The translations under genes and the position numbers were made by a program. 64,000 nt of DNA from contig JAIXZY010000016.1 of assembly GCA_027489355.1 (NCBI GenBank), forward strand, positions 1 to 64,000. The letters run 5' to 3'. Below, piece by piece: positions 11,946-38,166 of this stretch; position 1 is the stretch's first letter, and each line of letters begins with the position of its first letter. The DNA comes from Paracoccaceae bacterium (GTDB lineage: Bacteria > Pseudomonadota > Alphaproteobacteria > Rhodobacterales > Rhodobacteraceae). The notes below the pieces were generated by a model. The model was not told the origin of the DNA. It ran no database searches and saw nothing but the letters and a program-made list of their open reading frames with translations.

Positions 11946-12035
11946 GGAAGTGTGGCCGAGTGGTTTAAGGCTCTGGTCTTGAAAACCAGCGTGGGGGGAA
12001 CCCCACCGTGGGTTCGAATCCCACCGCTTCCGCCA
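11946..12035 (+). tRNA. tRNA-Ser(TGA)
   Basis: ggaagtgtggccgagtggtttaaggctctggtcttgaaaaccagc...gggttcgaatcccaccgcttccgcca; acceptor stem pairs, long variable arm, anticodon TGA. Confidence 0.95.
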
Positions 12036-12374: not shown

Positions 12375-15278
12375 ATGCTGAAGGCGATCGGCGACATGAT
12401 CGACCCGGCATGGGAACGGTTCCATCGGAGCCGGACCATGATGGTCCTGATGCGACCGGTCATCATTCTGCTGATCACACTGAAGGCCGTCTTCCTGCGC
12501 CAGCGGATGAGCCATGAGAACGGCTTCGTGACGCGCGGGCGCATCCGGCTGCTGGATCAGCTGGACCTTCCGGCCAACGGGTTCTTCACGCCGGGCCGCG
12601 CCTTCGCCTGCCGCCTGCGCCACGCGTCGGTCAGTTTCCTGGATGACGCCGGTCTGGTAGTCCGCGGCGCGTCGCTGAAGTTCGCGGACAGCCCGACAGA
12701 CAGTCCGCTGGATGTTCTGATGAACACCGGGACGGCGGCGCCCTTCTGGAACATGGATACGTTCTGGCAGTTCACCTTCGCCAAGCTTGTCGGCGGACGC
12801 GCGCATCTGATCGGATATTTCCAGCGCAACCCGCGCTGCTACATGAACGTGCGCTCGGCCCTGCGGCGCGACCCGACCAGTTATGCGCTGCAGCATTACC
12901 ACAGCCAGACGCCGCTGCGCTTTGTCGCCGAGGACGGCCGGACCCGCTATGCCAAGTTCCGCCTGCGCCCGATGAGTGATGCGACCGGGGTGCCGTCGGA
13001 CGGCGACGGCCGCCCGTCCGAGGGCGATCTGGAAATGCCTTGGTTCCAGGAGGCGTTGTCGCACGAGGCAAGAAGCCGGAACTACCTGAAGGACGAATAC
13101 CACTCGCGCCTGCAGAAGCAGGGCAAGGTCGACTATCTGCTGCAGATCCAGCTGCTGGAGTGGCAGGAGGGGGATGACCGGCGGTATGAGCTGAGCTCGC
13201 TTTACCCCTGGGACGAGGCGGCGGCGCCCTGGCGGGACCTGGCGCATGTCACCATCGACGAGATGCTGAGCTACCATGAGGGCAACCAGTGCTATTTTGC
13301 CCTGACCAACCTTCCGCCCGCCTTGCAGGTCATTCCGGCGCTTGGCTACGAGGACGGACCGTCGCTGGACTATCTGCGGCTTGGCGGCATCGTGCCGCGC
13401 AAGGCGCGGCTGTTCATGTATCGGCTCCTGGGCCAGCGTCCCCCGATCCCGGATTCCCGGCCCGAGACGGCGACGGACTACGCCGACCACACCACGGCCA
13501 CGCTGGACAGTGCCGAGATCTACAGCGGCCTGAGCCTGCCGCAGTCGGTCACGGGGCTGGACGCGCTGGAGCGGCAGCAGCAGCTGGAAGCGGCACGGGG
13601 CGACTACCAGTACCTCCACGGCTACATCCTGTCGGGGGCACCGCGCCTGCTGAAGCAGGGCTGGGCCGTGCCGAACTGGTACCGGCGGGTGTTCGAGATC
13701 TATAGCGCCGATCCCGCCGCCCCGCCCGGCGAAGCGGTGCCCTTGCCACCCTTCGTGCGCCGGTTGCTGCCGCAGGAGCAGTACAGCGTCTATATCCAGG
13801 GGCGCCTTTACCGGATGATCAGCGCCTCGGTCGTGTCGCTGGGTCTGAGCATCGTGGAAAACTGGCTGAAGGCGCGCCACGGGTTCGCGGGCTATCGCCA
13901 CCTGTTCCTGGGCTACCGCGACCGGCCCGCGATTGCGGAGCGCTGGCGCGAGGATGCCGAGTTCGCCCGCCAGCGCATCGCCGGGATCAACCCCTGCGTC
14001 ATCCGCCGCTTCGAACGCGTGCCGGAGAATTTTCCGGTGACGGATGCCGTTCTGGACGGGCTGCTCGATCCCGGCGAAACGCTTGCCAGCGCGATCCAGG
14101 GGAAGCGGCTTTTCGTCTGCGACTACCGCCTGCTTGAAGGCATCTCGGTGCGGGATGGCTGCTATCTGGCCCGGCCGATTGTGCTGTTCTACGCGGGTGC
14201 CGGCGGCCGCCTGATGCCGGTCGCGATCCAGCTGTTCCAGTCGTCGGACCAGGGGCCGATCTTCACCCCCAAGGATGAGCACGGCCTCTGGCTGGCGGCA
14301 AAGACCTATGTGCAAAGCGCGGATGCGCAGATCCACGAGGTCGTGGAGCATCTGTTGCACAGCCACCTGATCATCGAGGTGTTCGATGTGGCGATCCACC
14401 GGACGCTGGCCGAGGCGCATCCGGTCTTCCAGCTTGTCGCGCCGCATCTGCAATATACGATGGCCGTGAACTCCAGCGCGCGGACGACGATGCTGGCGCC
14501 GGGGGGGCCGATCGACCGGACCATGGCCGTGGGGGCGAAGGGCGCCTTCGAGCTTTTGGCGCGGGTCTGGTCGGAAGAGTGGAACTTTGCCCGCCACAAC
14601 GTGCATCTCGACCTTGCCGAGCGGGGCCTGGACGACGCCTCGGTGCTGCCGGGCTACCACTGGCGCGAGGACGCGCTGCGTCTGTGGCACGTCATCGAGA
14701 CCTATGTCGGCGAGATGGTGGGGCTGTTCTATGCCGACGATGCCGCCGTGCGGACGGATGCCGAGTTGCAGGCGCTGCATGCCGAGTTGCGCAGCGAAAC
14801 GGGCGGCAATGTTCGGGGGATGCCGGGGGGCGACGGCGGGTTCGGCGACAGGGCCACGCTGGTCGAGTTCCTGACCCGCCTGATCTATACCGCGTCCGCA
14901 GGTCATGCTGCGGGCAACAACGGGCAGTTCGACATCTACGGCTTCGTGCCCAACGTGCCCGGCGCCTTGCACCGCCCGCCGCCGGCGGACAAGGCTCTGG
15001 CCTGGTCCGAGGCGGACCTTGCCCGCGCGATGCCCGGGTTCCGGTCCGCCTCGATCCAGATCCTGATGGTCCGCTTCCTGTCGCGGCCGACGGAAATGCC
15101 GCTGGGAACCTTCCCGCAGGAATTCTTTGCCGGAACCGATCTGGTCTGGCCCGTGGTGCGTCGCTTCCGGCACAACCTGAACGCACTTTCGCAGGAGATC
15201 CGCCGGCGCAATGCGGGGCTGGAGGTGCCTTACACCTATCTTGACCCGGCCCAGGTCGCTTGTTCTATTACGGCGTGA
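12375..15278 (+). CDS. Catalase-related (allene-oxide-synthase-like/y4iL-like) N-domain fused to lipoxygenase
   Basis: LOX motifs: WLAAKTYVQSADAQIHEVVEHLLHSHLIIEVFDVAIHRTL (HxxxxH), SAGHAAGNNGQFDIYGF (third His + Asn); N-part GFFTPGRAFACRLRHAS...GASLKFAD...DVLMNTGTAAPF and YHSQTPLRFVAEDGRTRYAKFRLRP resemble catalase-like domains. Confidence 0.82.
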   Translation: MLKAIGDMIDPAWERFHRSRTMMVLMRPVIILLITLKAVFLRQRMSHENGFVTRGRIRLLDQLDLPANGFFTPGRAFACRLRHASVSFLDDAGLVVRGASLKFADSPTDSPLDVLMNTGTAAPFWNMDTFWQFTFAKLVGGRAHLIGYFQRNPRCYMNVRSALRRDPTSYALQHYHSQTPLRFVAEDGRTRYAKFRLRPMSDATGVPSDGDGRPSEGDLEMPWFQEALSHEARSRNYLKDEYHSRLQKQGKVDYLLQIQLLEWQEGDDRRYELSSLYPWDEAAAPWRDLAHVTIDEMLSYHEGNQCYFALTNLPPALQVIPALGYEDGPSLDYLRLGGIVPRKARLFMYRLLGQRPPIPDSRPETATDYADHTTATLDSAEIYSGLSLPQSVTGLDALERQQQLEAARGDYQYLHGYILSGAPRLLKQGWAVPNWYRRVFEIYSADPAAPPGEAVPLPPFVRRLLPQEQYSVYIQGRLYRMISASVVSLGLSIVENWLKARHGFAGYRHLFLGYRDRPAIAERWREDAEFARQRIAGINPCVIRRFERVPENFPVTDAVLDGLLDPGETLASAIQGKRLFVCDYRLLEGISVRDGCYLARPIVLFYAGAGGRLMPVAIQLFQSSDQGPIFTPKDEHGLWLAAKTYVQSADAQIHEVVEHLLHSHLIIEVFDVAIHRTLAEAHPVFQLVAPHLQYTMAVNSSARTTMLAPGGPIDRTMAVGAKGAFELLARVWSEEWNFARHNVHLDLAERGLDDASVLPGYHWREDALRLWHVIETYVGEMVGLFYADDAAVRTDAELQALHAELRSETGGNVRGMPGGDGGFGDRATLVEFLTRLIYTASAGHAAGNNGQFDIYGFVPNVPGALHRPPPADKALAWSEADLARAMPGFRSASIQILMVRFLSRPTEMPLGTFPQEFFAGTDLVWPVVRRFRHNLNALSQEIRRRNAGLEVPYTYLDPAQVACSITA

Positions 15279-15359: not shown

Positions 15360-18300
15360 ATGCCAGCTGACATCCTTCCCGAGGTCATCGAGTGTCTGGG
15401 CCGGGCACGGGGCTGCGAGGTGTACCGCGCTCGGCTGACTTCCGGCGGTCCCCCGGTCATCGTGAAGGTGGCAGAGACGGGCGCGGGCCGGCAGGTGTCT
15501 GCCAGTCTGAGGCGGGAATTCGAGATCACCCGGGCTCTTGCCGCGATTCCCGGTCTCCGTGTCGCTACCGAGTGCCGCGAAACGCCCGGCGGCCCGATGC
15601 TGGTCTATCCCGACGACGGGCTGCACGAACTTGCCAGCGTTGCCACCTTTCCGCTTCCGGCACCGCTTCTGGTCCCGGTCGCCGAGCGGCTGGCGGCCGC
15701 GCTGGACGGGGTGCACGCGGCGGGGATCGTGCATGGGGGCGTGAACCCGGCGGCGATCGTCGGCTCGGCTGATCTGGCGGAGGTGCGTCTGGCCGATTTC
15801 TCGATGGCGGAGCGGGGCGCGACACGGGCGGGCGTTGTGCATGACGCGGCCGTCCTTGCCTATCTTGCGCCCGAGCAAAGCGGCCGGATGGATCGCGCGG
15901 TCGACCGGCGCGCCGACCTTTACGGGCTGGGGGTCACGCTTTACCAACTGGCGACGGGAGTGCAGCCCTTCGAGAATGGCGACCCGGCTGTGATCCTCCA
16001 CCGGCACATGACGCTGGTGCCGGACGCTCCGATCCGGCTGAACCGCGAGGTCCCCCCGCACCTGTCCCAAGCCATCCTGCGCCTTCTGGCCAAGAACCCG
16101 GAAGACCGCTTCCAGTCCGCCGCCGAGGTTGTGGAGGCAATCCGGGCGGGCGCGGCGGCACCCCTGACGATACCGGGACGGCTTTATGGCCGGGCGGCCT
16201 TGATCCGGGACCTGGAGCAGGAGATCACGTCCGGCCTTGTGGGAACAAGCAGGCTGATCCGGATCGCGGGGCCGTCGGGCTCGGGCAAGTCCGCGCTGGT
16301 CGCGGAACTGGTCCGCCCAGCCATCCGGGCGGGGGCCAGTTTCGCGCAGGGCAAGTTCGACCAGCTTGACCGGGCGCGGCCCTATGCGGCCTTCACGCAG
16401 GCCTTCGACATGCTTCTGCGGCGCCTGCTGGCGGAGTCTCCCGATTACGTGGCGCTGTGGCGCAAGCGCCTGCTGGACGCGCTAAGCCCCAACGGCCAGG
16501 TCCTGCTTGACCTGCTGCCGAACTACGAGCGGCTGATCGGACCGCAGCCGAAACTGCCGCAGCTGGGCCTGAACGAAGCGCAGATCCGGGTGCAGCTGGT
16601 GTTCCGGCGCTTTGTCGGGGTGCTGGCGCGATCCGACTGCCCGCTGATCCTGTTCCTGGACGACCTGCAATGGGCCGACAGCGCATCCGTCGACCTGATC
16701 GAGCTTCTGCTTGCGGACGAGGGAATCCGGAACCTGACGATCATCGTGGCCTACCGCGCGAACGAGCTGGAGCCAAGCCATCCGACAGCTGTGCTTCTTT
16801 CGGGGCTGTATGCCCGGCGGCACCAGATGCAACGGGTCGAGCTGGCTCCACTGGCGGTCGGGGACGTGATCGACCTGGTCGTCGAGAGCCTGGACATCAC
16901 GCCCGAGGCCGCCCGACCCCTGGCGCGGGTCGTGGCGGAGAAGACAGGCGGGAACCCGTTCTTCATCCGGCAGTACCTGATGTCGATGGCGCGGAAGGGC
17001 CATCTGCTGCGTGAGGCGCAGACCGGGCGGTGGACCTGGGACATAGATGCGGCCTCGGCCGACAAGTTCGCCCCGGACCTGGCCGAACTGGTTGCGGAAC
17101 GGATCGTCGCGCTGCCCGAGGATACGCTGCAGATGGTCCGCATCGCCTCGTGCAGCGGGAACGTCTTCGACACCGATGTGCTGGCGCTGACCCTTGACAT
17201 TCCGCCGGACGAGGTGATGGCACGGATGGCACCCGCGCTGCGGGAGGAGATTGTCCTGCCGCTGGATCGCGACCTGTCGGCCCCGCACCGTTTCCGCTTC
17301 CAGCACGACCGGGTGCAGCAATCGGCCTATGGCAGCCTGAGCGAGGCAAGCCGCGCCCGGCTTCATGCCCGCATCGGCGAGATCCTTCTGCTGAAAAGCG
17401 CCGATCCGCAAAGCCGGCGCATCGAGATCGCCGATCACCTGATCGCCGGACGCGAGCATCTGTCGGAACCGACGCTTTTGCGGCTGCGCGCCTTGGTGCT
17501 GGAGGCGGCCCAGGAGACGATGCAGGCCAACGCCTATGACGCCTCGTTGCGGTACCTCGCGGCGGCCGAGGGGACCTTTCGCGGCGACCTCTGGGCGCAG
17601 GAGCCCGAGCTGGCCTTTCGCATGGCTTTGCAGCGGGCCAGCATCGCCTATCTGAAGAACGAGATCGACACCGCGCGCCGGACCACCACCGAACTGCTGG
17701 CGCGGCCACTGGCCGTATCCGACCGCGTGCAGGTGCTGGAACTGGTGATCCTGATCGAGACGTCGCAGCTGAACTACCGCACCGCCTTGCAGACGGGGCG
17801 CGATGCGATTGCGCTGCTGGGCGAAAAGCTGGTGGCCAACCCCTCGACGGTCCAGGTGCTGGTCGATCTGATGGCCACCCGGCGGCGCGTCAACCGGATT
17901 GCGCCCGATGCGCTTCTGCAGCTGCCGCGGATGACCGATCCGGCAAAGCAGGCGGTGATGCGGGTTCTGGTGCTGCTGTCGGCCCCGGCCTATTTCTCGG
18001 AGCCGAACCTGTTGCCGATGATCGCGCTGAAGATGGTGCGGCTGTCGCTTGCCCACGGCAACGCCCCGGATTCCGCCTTCGGCTACGTGATCTACGGGAT
18101 GCTGCACTGCGCGGTGCTGGGCGACCCGAAGCGCGGGCTGGCCTATGGCCTGCTCGCCTGCCGCGCGGCCAGCGTGCTGGGGGCGCAGACCATCGAGGGG
18201 CGGGTCCTGATGGTCTATGCCGGGTTCATCCAGCACTGGTCCGCCCCCTTGACCGCAACCCTGCCGATCTTCCTGGACGCCGCCGATCGGTCGATCAGCG

Positions 18301-20573
18301 CGGGCGACCTGGAGTACCACGGCTACACCCGCTACGGCCATGCCTCGTATGCGCTGATGGCCGGGCAGCCCCTGGGCCTGGTCAGCGATTTCCTGGAGCA
18401 GCATCTGGCGGCGGTGACCCATTCCCGCCACGAGAAGACGCGGCGGATCATCACCATGGCCCGGGCAAGCGTGGGCCGGATGCGCGGGCTGGCCGACGAT
18501 CCCTTTGCGCAGGCGTTCGACGATGCCGAGAATTTCCGGCTTTGGACCGACCAGGCGGATGCGACCTCGCTGGCCTATTTCCACAAGTACAAGATGCTGG
18601 AAGCGCAGATGGCGGGCGATCCTGCCGCGGTCCTTCGGCACGCGGGCGGCATGCAGCGCAATCTGGCCGGCATCCTGTCCATGGCCTACCAGCCCTTCTA
18701 CCAGTTCTACGAGGCGCTGGCGCTGGTCGAGCTTTCGGCGCGGCGCGGCCCGCTGCGGCGGAGGTCCATGCTGTTGCGCGCCCGCCACCTGACCCGGCGT
18801 CTGGAGCGGTGGGCGCGGACGGCGCCGCGGACGCTGTCGCATCGGGTGCTGCTGCTGCGCGCCGAACTTGCGGCGGCCGAGGGGCAGCCCGCCCGGGCGA
18901 TCGGGCTGTTCGACGAGGCGATCCATCAGGCACGCCAGGCGGCCGCGCTGCATGACATCGGGCTTTTCCACGAACGCGCGGGCCTGTTCTACCTGCGGCA
19001 GGGCGCCCGCAGGCAGGGGATGGAAAGCCTGTCGGCGGCGCTTCTGGCCCATTCCGACTGGGGCGGTGATGGCTGGCGCGCGGCCCTGATCCTGCGCCAC
19101 CCCGCTCTGGCGGCGCCTCGGTCCGGGGCGGGTTCGGGGAGCGCACAGGTCCCGGCGACGACCTCGGTCGACAGCGGCACGCTGATCCGGGCGGCCGCGG
19201 CCATCGCGCAAAGCAACTCGCTGGAGGAAATGGTCATCCAGGTCCTGCAGGCCGTGGTGCAGAATGCCGGAGCGGACTACGGCGCGCTGCTGCTGGAGGA
19301 GGGCGACGGGCTTGTCGTGCTGGCCGATACCGACGCCGAGGGGGCGGCGCATGTCCGCGCCGACCGCCCCGCGGCCGAGGCGGTTGCGGGGCTGCCGATG
19401 TCGATCCTGGCGCATGTCCGCAGCAGCCGCGAGCGGGTGATCCTTGAGGACGCGATCAGCGACCAGATCTACGGGCGGGACCCCCAGGTGCAGGCGCTGG
19501 GCGCGGCCTCGGTCCTGTGCGTGCCGCTGGTGGCGGGAGCGACGCTTGTGGGGCTGGTCTATCTTCGCAATGCCCGCCTGCGCTCCGCCTTCACCGCAGA
19601 CCGCTGCGATACGGTCGAGGTCCTGGGCGCCCAGGCGGCGGTGTCGATCCAGAACAGCCGCCTTCTGGACCGCCTGCGCGCGGCGCTGGAGCGGCAGGTG
19701 GACCTGACGTCGGCCCATGCCCGCTTCGTGCCGGAAAACTTCCTGGAGATGCTGAAGCGTCCGTCGATCATCGATGTGCGTCTGGGCGACCATCTTCGGG
19801 GCGAGGCGTCGATCCTTTTCTCGGACATCCGGGGGTTCACGCCGCTCATCGAACGGCTGACCCCCACAGAGGCCATCACCTTCATCAACGAGTTCCTGTC
19901 GCTCATGGACCCGGCGGTGCAGGCCAATGGCGGCTTTGTCGACAGCTATATCGGCGATGCGGTCATGGCGGTGTTCGACCGGGGGCCGACGGCGGCCATC
20001 GACGCGGCGCTTGCCATGTCGCGTGCCCTTGCAGACTGGAGCGTGACGAGCCGGACCCCGGACCGCCAGCCTGTCCGCATCGGGATCGGGATCGCGACAG
20101 GGCAGCTGATCTTCGGAACGATCGGCGCGGCCAACCGGCTGAAATGCAGCGTCATCGGCGACACGGTCAACCTGGCCTCGCGGGTCGAGGGGCTGACCAA
20201 GCATTACGGGACGGGGCTTCTGGCGACCGAGGAAACCCTTGCCGGAGTGGGCGAGCCCGGACGCTACCAGACGCGGGAGATCGACCTTGTCACGGTGATC
20301 GGACGGCGGACGCCGGTGCGCCTGTTCGAGATCTTCGATGCCGACCCGACCGAGCTGCGGGCGCGCAAGGCCGCGACGGCGCCCGACCTGGCGCGCGGGC
20401 ATCTGCTTTACCGCGACGGGCGCATCGCCGAGGCGCGCCAGGCCTTCGAGGCGGCGCGGGCGCAGTATCCCGACGATCTGGTGTCATCGCGGCTGATCCT
20501 GCGCTGCCACCGCGAGGAGGCCCAGGGCCACGGGCCGGAATGGACCGGGGTCGAGCATCTGGCCGAGAAGTGA
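15360..20573 (+). CDS. Giant signalling protein: kinase-like domain + AAA ATPase + TPR-like region + GAF + class III adenylate/guanylate cyclase
   Basis: Kinase-fold [28 protein letters not shown]; Walker [12 protein letters not shown], Walker B [14 protein letters not shown]; cyclase [46 protein letters not shown]. Confidence 0.9.
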   Translation: [1737 protein letters not shown]

Positions 20574-37970: not shown

Positions 37971-38166
37971 GTCGTTCCGTCCTGTCCTGCAACACATTCC
38001 GCAAGACCGACGTCCCGCGACGGAAGAGGAAACCCCGGACCTCCGGCAAGAGTTCCCGTCCCGACGCATTCCACCGGGCAGCGCCGCGCAGGATACCCCC
38101 CTCGCGGCTTGAGTTTGCCGTCGGGGCCACATACACCTTCAGGGGACCAAGGAAGGACCGCACCCC

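Follow-up and report, generated by a model that had tools for sequence, protein, structure and literature searches.

Results

Two genes beside a serine tRNA gene

The window, as we call the whole 64,000-nucleotide stretch that was analysed (positions 1 to 64,000 of contig JAIXZY010000016.1, assembly GCA_027489355.1, Paracoccaceae bacterium), carries two consecutive genes on the forward strand, downstream of a tRNA gene:

11946-12035, forward strand: tRNA-Ser(TGA), where synteny with congeners ends in the genome comparison
12375-15278, forward strand: catalase-like/lipoxygenase fusion gene, a single open reading frame encoding 967 residues
15360-20573, forward strand: the next gene, encoding a giant signalling protein of 1737 residues with kinase-like, AAA_16, TPR-type, GAF and class III cyclase regions by Pfam

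A first-pass annotation, made from the sequence alone, had read the first gene as a catalase-like domain fused to a lipoxygenase (LOX). We confirmed that this fusion is real. The reading frame has exactly these bounds, and its single chain combines an N-terminal domain with the fold of coral allene oxide synthase (AOS) and a C-terminal domain that matches the Pfam lipoxygenase family. Indeed, the top structural match of the full-length AlphaFold2 model (pLDDT 85) is the coral AOS-LOX fusion 3dy5 (E 1.3e-57). The proposed alphaproteobacterial origin is plausible, as the same-family relatives are named Rhodobacterales/Rhodobacteraceae. The conserved giant beside the fusion, which is the larger feature of the locus, had been missed.

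Unlike the coral fusion, the window protein has no PLAT domain between its two domains; a linker of about 110 residues without a Pfam match joins them. It also differs in its N terminus:

12441-12497, forward strand: hydrophobic N-terminal helix, residues 23-41 (Kyte-Doolittle; helical in the structure models)
12498-13454, forward strand: catalase-fold domain, coral AOS-like, residues 42-360 (phmmer, AlphaFold2 model, profile alignments)

The Kyte-Doolittle mean of the helix is 2.25 over 19 residues, against -0.16 for the coral segment. A mean above 1.6 is found in 33 of the 39 bacterial members introduced below, and hydropathy thus points to a probable membrane anchor.

The catalase-like domain has a coral-type distal pocket

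No Pfam family matches the N-terminal domain. Its kinship is nevertheless clear: phmmer against the PDB finds coral AOS 1u5u (E 5.4e-50, residues 43-336), and 1u5u is also the best match of the AlphaFold2 domain model (pLDDT 90, TM 0.84, E 3.8e-34). The next structural matches are the mycobacterial catalase-related protein 3e4w and then true catalases. To monofunctional catalase there is no Pfam match, only a likeness of fold (query-normalised TM of about 0.6). On plasmids, tblastn with the whole protein returned LOX-only matches and one region of NGR234 pNGR234a (411228-412085) that weakly resembles the catalase-like domain; with coral AOS as query, that region was the sole match.

A genome scan seeded with the catalase-like domain alone yielded 39 loci, a number that includes near-duplicates (three Thiocapsa; L031/L035) and is not a count of independent events. 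Members were sought with two peptide patterns, one of them containing RMSH, so the set is limited to this clade and more distant cAOS proteins are missed. The residues compared with coral AOS are these:

12510-12515, forward strand: distal Ser46-His47 (coral Thr66-His67); Ser-His in 39 of 39 members counted
12723-12725, forward strand: distal Asn117 (coral Asn137); invariant
13377-13409, forward strand: proximal segment R335-R345, aligned with coral R349-R360 (HMMER, hhalign)
13419-13421, forward strand: Y349 of the RLFMY motif, an alternative haem-ligand candidate; not invariant

On the distal side the likeness is close. The counterparts of coral R64, H67, R102 and N137 show little or no variation in the 39 sequences counted, and the His of RMSHENG, picked out earlier as a candidate distal residue, is H47 and aligns with coral His67. 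The conservation of the Ser-His pair is not a search artefact, since 21 members do not match the RMSH-containing pattern and were retrieved with the other. Two pocket residues differ from coral AOS in every bacterial member: Thr66 is replaced by Ser, and Leu150 by Phe. Phe150 is the residue of the coral hydroperoxide lyase (cHPL); however, the L150F variant of cAOS still gave AOS products only (PMC5617202), so the product is not predictable from Phe at this position. Indeed, the product class (allene oxide, hydroperoxide-lyase product or other) cannot be told from sequence.

The proximal side is different. The coral sequence reads EDYNSIGELR349VAVY353TWVQHLR360, in which Tyr353 is the axial ligand. 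HMMER and hhalign agree that R335 corresponds to coral R349 and R345 to coral R360, with one residue fewer in the bacterial proteins. HMMER places the missing residue exactly at Tyr353, with moderate confidence in this stretch (posterior about 0.2-0.8 per column after R349), and hhalign somewhere in 337-339. None of the 38 members read, L013 included, has a Tyr at or beside the aligned site, and the window protein has I339 in this region. In the AlphaFold2 models the helix is broken at residues 337-338.

The RLFMY sequence had been put forward as a haem Tyr motif. The sequence is present, but the assignment finds no support: its R345 aligns with coral R360 and not with R349, so that equating Y349 with Tyr353 would require a shift of ten residues. 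Nor is Y349 invariant, the position being Tyr in 34 and Ile or Leu in 4 (L009, L019, L025, L036) of the members with a residue there. Y349 could still serve as a haem ligand, some ten residues past the aligned site.

These observations bear on two other explanations. In one, the catalase-fold domain is non-catalytic and either binds a hydroperoxide or oxylipin or regulates the LOX, being haem-free or open on its proximal side. The absence of a Tyr353 equivalent and the helix break would suit such a domain. However, the distal His, Asn and Phe and the propionate-type Arg residues hardly vary, if at all, from phylum to phylum, which points to a retained haem site, and Y349 may supply the ligand. 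We think a non-catalytic role unlikely. In the other, the protein is an ordinary cAOS-LOX fusion of the coral or cyanobacterial type that makes allene oxide, and the giant travels along by chance. Strong likeness to coral AOS-LOX speaks for this, as do the catalase-LOX fusions known in Acaryochloris and Anabaena (PMC4319731; PMC11719350); the unconserved proximal Tyr position and the change of distal Thr to Ser in all members speak against it. As the alignments place no Tyr at the proximal position, the domain may not follow the haem chemistry of coral AOS. For the same reason we class the fusion, on these alignments, with the catalase-related AOS-LOX proteins as a variant and not as a member of cAOS.

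The lipoxygenase domain is canonical except at its C terminus

The second half of the fusion contains the following features:

13788-15275, forward strand: lipoxygenase catalytic domain, residues 472-967 (Pfam, alignment, model)
14349-14366, forward strand: iron ligands H659 and H664, in HLLHSH (alignment with coral, human and bacterial LOXs)
14478-14480, forward strand: Ala702 at the Coffa stereocontrol site, Gly in coral 8R-LOX (alignment)
14904-14918, forward strand: iron ligands H844 and N848, in HAAGN (alignment with known LOXs including coral 3dy5)
15273-15275, forward strand: Ala967, the C-terminal residue, where Ile is usual (alignment)

The Pfam search that had been suggested as a check gave a clear match to PF00305 (222 bits against a cut-off of 23.6, E 4.1e-65, residues 523-948). 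A lipoxygenase match and a catalase-like fold were thus both found, and neither outcome that the first-pass annotation had named as fatal to its proposal, the lack of a significant lipoxygenase hit or an N-terminal region of another fold, came about. The closest solved chains, human ALOX15B and coral LOX, place the domain in the canonical branch. The three His and one Asn of the lipoxygenase metal site are present (H659, H664, H844 and N848), and the motifs in which they lie, correctly picked out at the outset, align with the iron motifs of known LOXs. Another HxxxxH sequence, HEVVEH, was ruled out as the iron motif by the alignment with known LOXs and by relatives without the earlier His.

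The chain ends at the same place as other LOXs, and Ala967 falls in the column where these end in Ile; the terminal residue is Thr in the three Thiocapsa fusion relatives. The terminal ligand residue of LOXs is usually Ile and very occasionally Val (PMC13059375, a 2026 review), a residue preference and not a strict requirement from which the window protein departs. Its membership of PF00305 stands on the other features despite the terminal Ala. As the terminal carboxylate is still available, we consider it likely, though not certain, that the LOX is active.

An Ala at the Coffa site usually accompanies S products. Ala702 accordingly suggests an S product, a prediction of low value: a coral study puts the predictive value of such sequence analysis near zero (PMC5793058).

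The window protein can now be set beside its coral counterparts (Plexaura homomalla, 3dy5/1u5u; Capnella cAOS-LOX and cHPL-LOX). They have in common the domain order, the distal His and Asn, the haem-propionate Arg residues and the LOX iron site. The window protein departs from them in its missing PLAT domain, the unmatched axial Tyr353, Ser for Thr66, Phe for Leu150 (as in cHPL), the hydrophobic N-terminal helix, Ala for Gly at the Coffa site and a terminal Ala for Ile. The cyanobacterial proteins of Acaryochloris marina and Anabaena PCC 7120, compared by description only, likewise unite a bacterial catalase-related domain with a LOX.

The giant has a common chassis with exchangeable outputs

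Three domains of the giant are located as follows:

16179-16745, forward strand: AAA_16/STAND ATPase domain, P-loop GPSGSGKS intact
19221-19649, forward strand: GAF domain (Pfam)
19803-20201, forward strand: class III adenylate/guanylate cyclase domain (Pfam, alignment)

The cyclase has its metal Asp residues, Asn and Arg, and its purine-specifying Lys is replaced by Ser. In the kinase-like domain HRD has become HGG, with loss of the catalytic Asp. Part of the window giant may therefore be degenerate; most of its relatives retain the kinase and adenylate-cyclase residues in the alignment. No second full-length giant was found in the window's own genome.

All eleven giants scanned with Pfam share one chassis. 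HisKA plus HATPase takes the place of the cyclase in L019, L025 and L033, and HATPase with an H-box-like motif does so in L039. Such swapping is as expected of a receptor with an exchangeable output.

The closest named family that we compared is the TOMM kinase/cyclase fusion (TIGR03903). The giant shares its AAA core (E 5.5e-25, residues 275-737), as well as kinase and cyclase parts by name, but scores 87 bits, far below the family cut-off of 706. In contrast to the TOMM proteins, the cyclase of the giant is C-terminal, behind a GAF domain, and its partner is a LOX and not a peptide-modifying system.

LOX, catalase-like protein and giant recur together across phyla

The 39 loci come from Pseudomonadota, Bacteroidota, Balneolota, Ignavibacteriota, Actinomycetota and Acidobacteriota. 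A LOX, fused or adjacent, is present in 38, and a giant homologue, full or contig-truncated, in 34 (in L009, L020 and L041 as a partial reading frame near a contig end). Four of the five loci without a giant are short or fragmented (L010, L015, L023, L043); L023 agrees in size with a contig of genome G156, which has the giant as two reading frames on another contig. The fifth, L012 from Halioglobus, has the fusion and no giant nearby. L012 and L010 are the two gammaproteobacterial fusions without a giant, and they have in common a neighbour transcribed divergently, whose product has a hydrophobic N terminus (L012:8016-9806, in which Pfam finds TPR repeats, and L010:1216-3027). The one locus in which no LOX was found, L013, has a giant and a catalase-like gene; the catalase-like protein (L013:9581-11095) carries an extra N-terminal region of 140 residues, and its gene overlaps that of the giant by 4 bases.

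Fusions number six: the window, three Thiocapsa, one gammaproteobacterial MAG and Halioglobus pacificus. Elsewhere the catalase-like gene is separate, mostly of 360-420 residues (504 in L013), and lies beside a LOX reading frame. The separate LOX partners are either canonical or of a type whose L004 member has Cyanothece LOX 5ek8 as its closest solved relative, unlike the window LOX with its human and coral neighbours. Many loci have overlapping start and stop codons. At least five gene orders occur (fused; giant-LOX-catalase; giant-catalase-LOX; LOX-catalase-giant; divergent). Such variety speaks against the genes having simply been inherited as a single fixed block.

None of these genes is common. 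Among 199 same-family genomes, LOX occurs in 4 and the full-length giant core in 6 (in a sample of the class, LOX occurs in 3 of 385). The catalase-like gene occurs in 3 of the 199, and all 3 have both LOX and giant (Fisher p ~3e-6 with LOX and 1.5e-5 with giant). The association recurs across phyla, even if lying side by side does not prove that genes act in one pathway. A giant in 34 of 39 loci, in varied gene order, is also hard to reconcile with a chance companion of an ordinary cAOS-LOX fusion, an explanation that we doubt.

The gene pair was probably acquired horizontally

The fusion is present in 1 of 32 congeners. Upstream synteny with congeners reaches the last base of tRNA-Ser (12035) and goes no further. 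The window's downstream genes were looked for past tRNA-Ser in four congeners and were not found, save a 129-base L081 match to position 38099. This pattern fits insertion beside the tRNA gene, and the presence of syntenic genes upstream on one and the same contig speaks against contamination. In the tree the window fusion groups with those of Thiocapsa, its nearest relatives, in a clade with full support that lies far from other Rhodobacterales sequences. Rarity among congeners, the end of synteny at tRNA-Ser and the kinship with Thiocapsa together indicate that the gene pair was probably acquired horizontally at this site.

The position beside tRNA-Ser would also suit an anti-phage or stress-defence module, in which the STAND/kinase/cyclase giant would be the sensor and lipid peroxidation driven by the LOX the effector. 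The giant does have a STAND-like AAA domain, and its kinase and cyclase resemble parts of the PD-T4-6 kinases and PycC in PADLOC. However, those matches are generic, no PADLOC model matches the LOX or the catalase-like protein, and the one catalase-like search of viral contigs found no relatives. We consider a defence role very improbable.

Discussion

With slightly better than even confidence, we regard a horizontally acquired two-gene module, combining oxylipin synthesis with cyclic-nucleotide signalling, as the best explanation of the locus. The fusion enzyme would probably be attached to the membrane. Its LOX domain would add O2 to a polyunsaturated fatty acid, from the cell itself or from its neighbours, and the resulting hydroperoxide would pass to the catalase-fold domain for conversion to a secondary oxylipin of the epoxide/allene oxide or aldehyde type. 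The giant, with its kinase-like, STAND-ATPase, TPR and GAF regions and cyclase output, would sense or control this chemistry; the signal might run in either direction. As to substrate, searches of the genome, which gave seven genes identified to the level of the FA_desaturase family and only partial matches to a PfaA-like protein, showed no polyunsaturated fatty acid source.

The near-constant presence of one giant beside the LOX/catalase-like pair suggests an unexplored bacterial fatty-acid signalling module. We can tentatively extend the proposal, at somewhat less than an even chance, to a widespread bacterial oxylipin signalling system, in which a LOX and a catalase-fold partner lacking the axial tyrosine produce a redox cue or fatty-acid signal, and a dedicated STAND/GAF giant with an interchangeable cyclase or histidine-kinase output reads or regulates it.

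The coral counterpart of this enzyme pair makes hormone-like oxidised fatty acids. Lipoxygenases are rare in bacteria, and most of the bacterial ones have no assigned role. Another bacterial oxylipin system is that of the Pseudomonas aeruginosa diol synthases and OdsR, which is not known to involve a LOX or a cyclase giant. Its oxylipins differ in being derived from oleic acid and made by diol synthases; they are the bacterial oxylipin signal named in the literature we found, a cell-to-cell signal described there as not previously shown in prokaryotes (PMC6377657). Our literature search, of partial coverage and so no proof of novelty, found no paper linking bacterial LOXs with cyclases. The link between oxylipin enzymes and a signalling protein also recurs in named cultured strains of several phyla, so that signalling by LOX products is open to direct test. 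If the proximal tyrosine is really absent, the family would also offer a test of how a catalase fold deals with fatty acid hydroperoxides when the usual axial ligand is gone.

The two components also occur apart. Giants without a LOX are found in G079, G135 and G138, so the giant family also has other partners and may serve other enzymes too. The LOX-free giant homologue of G079 lies beside what appears by eye to be a flavin-dependent tryptophan halogenase-like gene (L061:4429-5724). Conversely, no giant was found in the stretches read around the LOX genes of two other genomes of the class, G422 and G561. In G561 two tandem LOX genes lie beside a large polyketide-synthase-type gene that by eye resembles a PfaA-like polyunsaturated fatty acid synthase (L095:741-10949).

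A second, different arrangement uniting LOX, haem peroxidase and cyclase is seen in G592 (L089:4498-15727) and G189 (L068:1-10988). Here a divergent LOX-like gene of 506-520 residues, its product also ending in Ala, is convergent with a cyclase-AAA gene, and close by lies a DyP-type peroxidase, identified with Pfam in L089 and by eye in L068.
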